Positions 54,701 through 57,700 of a stretch of 64,000 nt of DNA are shown piece after piece. The stretch lies in NCBI RefSeq assembly GCF_028389875.1, contig NC_084675.1:23274412-23338411 (forward strand). The letters run 5' to 3'. The position numbers were made by a program, and so were the translations under genes. The first letter of the stretch is position 1. Each line of letters opens with the position of its first letter. The stretch is from Rhea pennata (Eukaryota > Chordata > Aves > Rheiformes > Rheidae). The notes under the pieces were generated by a model. That model did not search any database. It was not told the origin of the DNA and saw only the letters and a program-made list of their open reading frames with translations.

Positions 54701-57700
54701 TCAAGAGGCAGTGCCAGTAAATATGAGCCCAGGCTACAAGTGCTGGCATGGTGAGCCCTGCAGCAAGAGCCAGGGAACCGGAGTGCCCAGAGTGAGCGCT
54801 ACTGGGCTCTGTGAGCTCCCTCCTGCTTTCTTTGCTTTTTTACCTTGTTCTTAATTTAGGCTGAATAACCAAGTTTCCTTGCTGGGCAAGTGGTCTTTCT
54901 CTAGCCCCATAGAGCAGCAAGTCCTGAACAGAGTAGGGTCTCGGACCGCTCTTGTCCTGGCCTTCCCACTGCTGCCTGAGCCCAGATATGGCTTCTGGAG
55001 GTGGTGAGCATCCTCCGATAACCAAGTCAGCGCTGGCAACCCTTACGTAGCAGGCTAAGCAGTCATCCGGAATGAGCAGTCAGAAGCATTTCTGCTTCCC
55101 AGACCAGTGGTGTTTCAGTGCTCCCCCCATCAGCCGGCCCCCTTGCTGTATGGGAAGTATAAAGCATTGCTCTTGCCAGGAGGAGGAGAGCTCCAGTGGG
55201 GCAGGTGCAAAGTGAACATGTAAGGAGCAGGGTGACAAACTTCTCGTTAATGTTTACTTCCTCTCTGAGGAAGTCAGGAGGTTGATGCGTCCCAGCAGGA
55301 TACAGAACTGCTGCTGCTGCTAGTGCCATCTCCTCCAGCGAGGGGCTCGGATGTGACCTCCCTGGAAGGGGCCGCACAGAGCTTGCGGCACGAGGCAGAG
55401 CTCGGGCTGCTCCGCAGGACGCGCAGGGCGCTGCTCTGAGCCCGTTTCCCACCCGTGCCCCTCTCTCCCTGGCCAGCCTGGCAGGCTGGAGCAGCTGGAA
55501 GGGGTCCGGTCCCGCGGAGCGGGGTGGGCTGCGGTGGCTTTGCCCGCCGTGTGCCCGGGCTCCCGCCGCACGCTGCTAGCGGGACCCGCACGGGCAGCGC
55601 TGGCTGCGCGGCGGCGTTCGGGAGGGGGCTTCCGCCGGCGGCTGAGCTGGATCCCGAGCCTGCGGCTCGCTAGCATCTCCGCGAGCGCCGGCCCTGGAGC
55701 CGCTCCAGCGCTGCGCGGCTCGCCCTGGCAGAGCGCAGAGGGAGGGACTCGCACTCCAAATTTAGCCTGATGAAACGGTTGTACTTTTGTTTCAAGCTTT
55801 CTGCTGCCAGCAGCGGTGGATCCTGCGCGGCCTCCTTCCCTGCAGGGGCTTTCGGCTTGGCTTCGCCCCGCTCTGCCCAGCGGGCAGGGAGAGGGGAGCG
55901 GAGCGGCGGCGCTGCACCCCGTGCTCCCGTGGGCACCGCGGGCCTCTGTGCCCTTCCAGCGCGGCTCGGAGGGCCGGGTGCAGCCGGGACCCCTCTGCCA
56001 GCGTGTGCCGGGGGGCTCCCAGCCCGCGTGCCCGCGCCGCGGGCTCGGCAGCGATTTCCCTCGTGCTGAGGGGTCTGGCGGGCAGGAGGTGCCAGGCTCT
56101 TCCCAGCCGGGTCCCACGCGTGTGGGGCCTGCTGAGAGCGACGGGAGGGCTGGCTCCCCGTAGCGCTGCCCTGTGCTCTTGTCTCCCTGCCGTGTTTGTT
56201 TTAATTAGTTATTTTTAGGTCGCAGTGAGGCGATACCTCTGGACGTGACTCGACTGTGTCTCTGGCCAGTCTGTCTGGGCAGGGAAGGGAGCGGAGACTG
56301 CTCAAAGCCTGAGGCACGCTGCATCCGGCCGGCGGCTGCCAGAGGCAGCGCCGCGGGGCGAGGGAGGCGGCTCGGAGGAGCGTGGGCTGCCCTGGCCCCC
56401 TCGCAGGCCGTGCCCTGGGACGTCCCCCCGGCGCTCGGCGCCCTTCCTGGGCAGCGCCTGGGGGCTCCGGCAGCCCCCGGGCCCTGCGCAGGGGCCCTGC
56501 GAGGAGTCAAGCCTGGGGGTGCTGCACCCGCCCCCTCCGCAGCCGGGGCCGCAGCGGGGAGGGCCCGGCCGTGGGCGGCCTTTCCCGCGCCCCCGCCGGC
56601 TCCGCGCGCGCCCCCGTCCCGCCGGGGCACCAGGCCCCTCTCCTGCGGCTCGGTCCGAGGAGGTGCAGTGAACAGGTCTTCTCGGTTCCCGTGCGTTTCG
56701 TATGCAACCGTTAAAAGCGCTTGCAGCTCCCCCGAATCCCCAGGGGTTCGGGCCGCGCGGGCGTCCCCGGGGGCGCCGGGGCCGAGGCGCAGCGCGGCCG
56801 CCGGCCCGCGGCGTCCCCCGGTTCAGGCTGGGTGACGGGCGGCCGGGGAGGAATAAAGGTGCTTTGTGCAGCGGCCCCCAACCTGCTGGGGGTGGGAGGC
56901 GGCGGGCCGGGAGACGCCTGTCTGCGCCGGCATGAATGTGCCCTCAGTGCGAGCGCATCCCGCGGCCGGCGCTGCCCCGCGCGCGGAGGGAGGGGGGCCG
57001 CGGCCGCCAGGAAGCGCTGGGCGTGGACAGGGCTTGTGGGAATGATTTCATTGGAAAGGCCTGCGATATTTTTTCCCTCTTGTGTGTGGTTCTTGGAGAA
57101 GGTTGGAGGTGTAACTGGTGGGGATAGTCGCCTTGGCCAGCAGGCGCTGAGCAGCCGCGCACATCTGGACTTTGCAGCTTGGTCCCGCTCCGCTCCGCGC
57201 ACCGTGGCACGGCCCCTGCCCTGCCGCCCCCTTGGCTGCCCCAGCCTCTGTTTAGTTTGTCCTTTTTTTTTTCTTTTTTTTTCTTTTTTTTTTTAACACC
57301 CCTTGAGTGTGCAAGTTTTTTTTTTAGTTCTTTGGGAGCAGATTCCCTCTGCTGCGAGCTGTGGGCCAACAGGAGGCAAGTGGAAAGCAGGGGGCCATGC
57401 GACTCCCCGTCACCCCCTGCTCCTTTTGCGCTCTGCTTTTTCCAGTCGTCTTTGCGTTGTTTTTTATTTTGTGTTTTTGCCCTCTCTGTTGTCTCTAGTC
57501 GTCTGGCGCCCCGTCCGACAATGATCCTCTTGGTCCCCTTCCTCCTGGCTGGGGTAAGTACAGCGCCTCCTCACCTGCCTCCGCTCCCGCCGGCCGGCCG
57601 GCCCGGGCGCCGCTGCCCCCTCCGCGGCCGGCCGGCCCGGGGCAGAGCCGGGCTCTCCGCGGGCTCGCCCGCTCCTGCCTGCTTCCCTCTCGGTTACCGG

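Follow-up and report, generated by a model that had tools for sequence, protein, structure and literature searches.

The analysed stretch of 64,000 nucleotides from Rhea pennata (hereafter the window) carries on its plus strand the gene of the ubiquitin ligase WWP2. The exons were located by tblastn with a human WWP2 protein sequence as query. The 18 coding exons, with a GT at 17 of 17 donors and an AG at 17 of 17 acceptors, join after refinement into an open frame of 694 residues which leaves the window at its end and is 81.7% identical to the human query protein. The encoded protein is a C2-WW-HECT ligase of the NEDD4 family, as Pfam finds the C2 domain, four WW domains and the first part of the HECT domain, the latter lying only partly within the window. 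For the part from WW2 to HECT, 163 distinct solved sequences passed the cut-off, and among the best 60 of these 163 the highest score belongs to 6j1x, a WWP1 chain, whereas the WWP2 chains 6j1z and 5tj7 each align in two stretches. Since the best-scoring solved sequence is a WWP1 chain, the name WWP2 rests on the human query protein and on the presence of miR-140.

The precursor of miR-140 (61904–61982, plus strand) is recognized by the Rfam family RF00678 with 110.4 bits at a gathering threshold of 70. It sits between WWP2 exons 16 and 17, on the same strand as the gene and downstream of the CpG-rich block in intron 10 described below. The open joins and this match bear out the gene and microRNA names of an earlier note on this DNA. 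In the collections of microbes and viruses a 22-base word of miR-140 was found in no contig.

Our numbering of introns and exons assumes one untranslated exon before the exon with the ATG, since a candidate 3′ splice site is present 15 bases upstream of the WWP2 ATG; counted in this way, intron 10 contains the block and intron 16 contains miR-140. The main CpG island of the gene (17721–19710, plus strand; CpG o/e 0.81, GC 0.74, TpG/CpA 1.09) is probably the first WWP2 promoter; the untranslated exon 1 was not located. This island also contains a GC-rich tandem repeat with a period of 85 and 2.3 copies (18332–18525). Three patterns of bird CR1 repeats gave no match. According to tblastn, the refined joins and the matches to solved sequences, exon 10 (53915–54089, plus strand) encodes WW2 and the WW2–WW3 linker, and by the refined joins exon 11 (57499–57553, plus strand) encodes the opening of WW3. 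The intron between these two exons is indeed intron 10, as the earlier note had held. Further downstream, exon 13 (60454–60582, plus strand) contains an in-frame methionine codon at 60455, which corresponds to position 440 of the human query protein, followed by WW4.

Within positions 50001–57498 the best change point of CpG density lies at 55339, where the density rises from 0.014 to 0.096 per base. To the left of this point, intron 10 has a CpG o/e of 0.24 and a TpG/CpA of 1.36, whereas the right part (55339–57498, plus strand), our candidate promoter of WWP2-C and pri-miR-140, has a CpG o/e of 0.80 and a TpG/CpA of 1.07; the high CpG o/e together with the lower TpG/CpA is the pattern of DNA escaping CpG decay. 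This CpG edge lies 6.6 kb upstream of the miR-140 precursor. The earlier note had delimited an abrupt CpG-rich block at 55320–57498. The abrupt onset could be confirmed, but the right edge could not, as the CpG richness passes through exon 11 into intron 11; thus, position 57498 is an exon border and the signal is partly regional. Intron 11 (57554–59628, plus strand), the right part of the same domain and an alternative location of the start site, has a CpG o/e of 0.95 as compared to 0.80 in the block, a TpG/CpA of 0.92 and a peak at 59000–59249 (CpG o/e 1.23, GC 0.86), so that the block is not a discrete island of intron 10. The richness extends to about 59.7 kb; intron 12 is CpG-poor (59711–60453; CpG o/e 0.46, TpG/CpA 1.36), and beyond it the richness resumes and reaches near the end of the window, with introns 16 and 17 at a CpG o/e of 0.89 and 0.75 and a TpG/CpA of 0.98 and 1.06, respectively. 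The CpG-rich domain to which the block belongs as its left half measures about 4.4 kb (about 55.34–59.7 kb, from intron 10 through intron 11) and is followed by a second rich domain.

A CpG island test with 500-base windows, a GC content of at least 55% and a CpG o/e of at least 0.65 gives the stretch 55141–59960 (CpG o/e 0.85 overall), with edges different from those of the original block. Twelve stretches across the window pass this test; right of 50 kb only 55141–59960 and 60081–63950 do so, the two longest. As some of the twelve lie in other introns, passing the test is not special. We also considered a switch in GC skew as a marker of a start site in intron 11, whose right part has a skew of +0.14, and rejected it, as intron 12 (+0.17) and intron 8 (+0.10) have a similar positive skew. 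A scan for bacterial promoters and terminators was discarded as irrelevant for an animal gene.

The right part of intron 10 is interrupted by AT-rich islands, of which three had been proposed. With 40-base windows and a minimum of 60% AT, the region 55339–57230 yields three AT stretches where 0.01 are expected (0 of 500 shuffles), and its composition is therefore patchy beyond chance. Two of the three are the first two proposed islands: island 1 at 55749–55809 and island 2 at 56172–56241, the latter containing TAATTA (56202) and the MEF2 consensus YTAWWWWTAR (56209–56218). The third proposed island (56851–56868) has 61% AT over 18 bases and fails both this test and one with 20-base windows at 70%. 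Conversely, the proposed list lacks the remaining one of the three stretches, 57033–57105, in which TGTGGT, reverse CCAAT and GGAATG occur at near-chance frequency, as well as the T-rich tracts 57236–57355 and 57429–57504. Two AT stretches (19113–19184 and 19622–19669) are present in the main CpG island as well, so that AT patches are not special to the intron-10 block; introns 11 and 17 have one each and introns 12 and 16 none. Four sequence strings from AT islands 2 and 3 had no match in literature text.

A reading of the AT islands as SOX9 sites is not supported. Nineteen motif words were counted in 55320–57498 against 400 shuffles. The consensus SOX half-site does not occur in this region (0.74 expected), nor does TATAWAW, and GGGCGG is found 4 times as compared to 7.57 expected. 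Above expectation are WATAAAR (2 versus 0.06), the MEF2 word (1 versus 0.00; 0 of 400 shuffles) and TAATTA (1 versus 0.01; shuffle fraction 0.007), and the remaining 13 of the 19 words have no clear excess in the region. What is present is an imperfect inverted SOX pair, AATAAAG-GTG-CTTTGTG (56852–56868, plus strand), which matches at 12 of 14 positions with a spacer of 3 and whose AATAAAG at 56852 is also TATA-like. Of 57 such matches in the window, no other lies right of 50 kb. Among 300 dinucleotide shuffles, 14 have a pair at least as good, and among local shuffles 27 of 300 and 16 of 300 do; when both orientations and spacers of 3–5 are allowed the fraction of 300 shuffles with an equally good pair rises to 0.15. 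We therefore rejected a SOX9 dimer site as proof of function, as the pair is near chance. It also differs in its spacing, as the inverted pairs favoured in SOX9 peaks of the limb are reported to have a 4-base and not a 3-base spacer (PMC6715657).

What would a short transcript encode? Model transcripts with assumed starts at 56000, 56885 and 57100 were read into exons 11, 12, and 13. Their upstream ATGs are out of frame or, in case of 56932 and 57397, terminated before exon 11. At 57496–57498 (plus strand) the intron-10 acceptor provides a TAG in frame with exon 11, and a leader keeping the end of intron 10 therefore cannot code into WW3. In all three model transcripts the first open in-frame ATG is that of exon 13 at 60455, in the context CAGGGGATGA. 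The product starting there has, according to Pfam, WW4 and HECT and neither C2 nor WW1–3; a first exon that is spliced separately could alter this outcome. The short product had been predicted to keep WW4 and HECT and to lack C2, WW1, WW2 and the linker; this is what we obtain, and WW3 is lost as well. Exon 11 contains in addition an out-of-frame ATG (57521) opening a 22-codon frame (57521–57553 and 59629–59664) which ends in exon 12; lying before the WWP2-C start, it possibly exerts translational control.

The product resembles the human WWP2-C, which is described as lacking C2 and WW1–3 and as arising together with miR-140 from a separate intronic promoter (PMC10988806). The earlier note had further supposed that loss of the linker frees the ligase from autoinhibition. 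This agrees with published deletions in WWP2, where autoubiquitination is marked once the linker or the region from WW2 to WW4 is deleted (PMC6639328); these deletions support the relief of autoinhibition, by loss of WW2 and linker, that is supposed for the short isoform.

In human and mouse, the promoter of WWP2-C and pri-miR-140 reportedly lies in intron 10 of WWP2, as is said to have been found by Yang 2011 and Yamashita 2012. The rhea locus shares with it the intron (by our count), the downstream exons, miR-140 in intron 16 and a product with WW4 and HECT. The likeness seen is one of layout. On the other hand, the rhea block has neither a consensus SOX half-site nor TATAWAW, and the rhea CpG-rich domain continues through exon 11 into intron 11.

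The arrangement of a WWP2-C/miR-140 promoter is mostly already in print for mammals. A review reports SOX9 binding in Wwp2 intron 10, in vivo promoter activity of the region and miR-140 in intron 16 of mammals (PMC9181530), and for human intron 9/10 a TATA box, putative SOX9 elements and a reporter response are described (PMC6801763). In human, a database prediction sets a start in intron 10, at a distance of 8,070 bases upstream of pre-miR-140 (PMC3978709). The same report places the ATG of the human C isoform in exon 14 as compared to exon 13 here, so that published exon and intron numbers may differ by one from our count. A common promoter is stated for miR-140 and WWP2 transcript variant 2 (PMC7566571), and a nearby miR-140 promoter has been argued for deer antler (PMC11031908). 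WWP2 is reported as the nearest gene to a region gaining enhancer status in chondrogenesis (PMC7187454). For birds, a listing puts chicken mir-140 into WWP2 intron 16, 17 (PMC3675212), and WWP2 figures among the genes given as regulated by SOX9 in mouse and chicken limb alike (PMC6715657). In that study the chicken limb-bud gene, like that of mouse, is highly expressed and has its SOX9 peak assigned to the gene and not to an intron; as peaks were counted from 10 kb upstream to the 3′-UTR, the SOX9 site is not located within WWP2. We found no literature on a CAGE-defined alternative promoter of chicken WWP2. A tentative human transcript, WWP2C-deltaHECT, starts in the matching intron, as proposed here; its product is said to keep WW3, which in rhea is precluded by the TAG at 57496 if the leader includes the end of intron 10 (PMC6801763).

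Taken together, we suggest that the domain at about 55.34–59.7 kb probably holds the ordinary equivalent of the known mammalian WWP2-C/pri-miR-140 promoter. RNA polymerase in cartilage would start within this domain, with the right part of intron 10 as the most likely place, and the short transcript would be spliced through exons 12 and 13. Translation from the methionine of exon 13 would yield a protein with WW4 and HECT, devoid of C2, WW1–3 and the inhibitory linker, and the same transcript would carry miR-140 in intron 16. The sequence itself shows the gene layout, the microRNA, the first open in-frame methionine and the CpG onset; promoter activity, start site, cartilage specificity and an action of SOX9 through the intron-10 block are what we infer here. 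Several lines of evidence point to an internal promoter: the intron number and the microRNA intron match the mammalian layout (PMC9181530) and the chicken listing (PMC3675212); CpG o/e (0.80–0.95) and TpG/CpA (0.92–1.07) are like those of the main island; promoters in internal introns are reported for mammals (PMC10988806, PMC6801763, PMC3978709); WWP2 is listed as SOX9-regulated (PMC6715657) and miR-140-5p is reported to be higher in the broiler growth plate than in the other tissues tested (PMC10342131); and the first open methionine gives a product of WW4 and HECT, while linker deletion raises autoubiquitination (PMC6639328). If the promoter is active outside mammals, a common promoter of WWP2-C and miR-140 would be older than mammals, and the locus would be a compact one to test how one transcription unit yields a de-inhibited ligase and a cartilage microRNA.

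Against an internal promoter we count, apart from the absent SOX half-site and TATAWAW, the low number of GGGCGG, the 3-base spacer and the twelve stretches passing the island test, the regional GC and CpG richness, with intron 11 richer than the block and introns 16–17 similar to it. GC3 is 0.78–0.82 in exons 2–4, 0.50–0.69 in exons 5–11, 0.74 in exon 12 and 0.81–1.00 in exons 13–19, which is a regional GC shift inside one gene over 60454–64000. As GC3 rises along with CpG, a regional process contributes, and CpG richness alone is no promoter mark here. There is a small but real chance that the domain reflects a regional GC shift and is no promoter. GC-biased gene conversion combined with low methylation would then have raised GC and CpG along the 3′ half of the gene, intron 10 would be just the place of onset, and miR-140 would be made from the main WWP2 promoter. 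The extension of CpG-rich stretches to near the window end and the step in GC3 from exons 5–11 to exons 13–19 speak for this explanation, whereas the sharp left edge, the fall of CpG o/e in intron 12 and the reports of a mammalian promoter in this very intron (PMC10988806, PMC9181530, PMC6801763) do not fit it.

Not all of the alternatives exclude an internal promoter. The block could be an enhancer or a methylation-sensitive element of the main promoter, as has been reported for a human DMR near the same intron; we regard this as unlikely, although it would be compatible with our favoured reading, and the paper on the human DMR itself states a separate intronic promoter of WWP2-C and miR-140. 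It is still less probable that miR-140 is driven by its own start close to the hairpin, in which case the intron-10 block would not be needed. The model here is human rsmiR-140, where a second predicted start lies 976 bases upstream of pre-miR-140 within a cloned transcription-promoting sequence and where the C isoform is said to be very weak or absent in adult human chondrocytes (PMC3978709), an observation which we also count against the internal promoter. Intron 16 is also CpG-rich, as given above. However, mouse limb buds are cited as expressing the C isoform abundantly (Yang 2011 via PMC3978709), the review puts the SOX9-driven promoter in intron 10 (PMC9181530), and starts near the hairpin and in intron 10 can coexist. 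Both rsmiR-140 and our candidate would give miR-140 a start independent of the main WWP2 promoter; the human one lies near the hairpin and the candidate is in intron 10. A start of the short transcript in intron 11 instead of intron 10 is similarly improbable, as in mammals the start is reported in intron 10 or 9/10 (PMC3978709, PMC9181530, PMC6801763) and intron 11 has one AT stretch as compared to three in the block, despite having the strongest CpG signal, and it would lead to the same protein since the first open in-frame methionine is in exon 13.

Returning to the internal promoter in intron 10, its second AT island offers a lead. The exact MEF2 consensus beside the TAATTA homeobox core might mean that the promoter takes MEF2 input, a conjecture in which we place little confidence. 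The window has 5 exact MEF2 words as compared to 0.98 expected, and 2 of them (56209 and 62900) are within 55339–64000, where at most 0.05 are expected and none of 300 shuffles has as many under any of four schemes. Both the MEF2 and the TAATTA word had been spotted by eye before the nineteen words were counted, so that the low shuffle counts are post hoc and the words serve as a lead only. The second support of the lead is a broiler study, according to which miR-140-5p represses HDAC4 in chondrocytes of the growth plate and HDAC4 in turn lowers MEF2C, with no direct binding between HDAC4 and MEF2C found in the work described (PMC10342131). miR-140 has also been placed downstream of SOX9 and upstream of HDAC4, MEF2C and RUNX2 (PMC11985438). 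If true, a MEF2-driven promoter would close a positive loop from MEF2 via miR-140 and HDAC4 back to MEF2, aiding the commitment of chondrocytes to hypertrophy. The MEF2 lead is the new piece here, which is not to say that the idea is absent from print.

The second exact MEF2 consensus right of 50 kb (62900–62909) is located in intron 17. The same intron contains, downstream of miR-140, an AATAAA (63153–63158) that may serve a short miR-140 transcript as an intronic polyadenylation signal.
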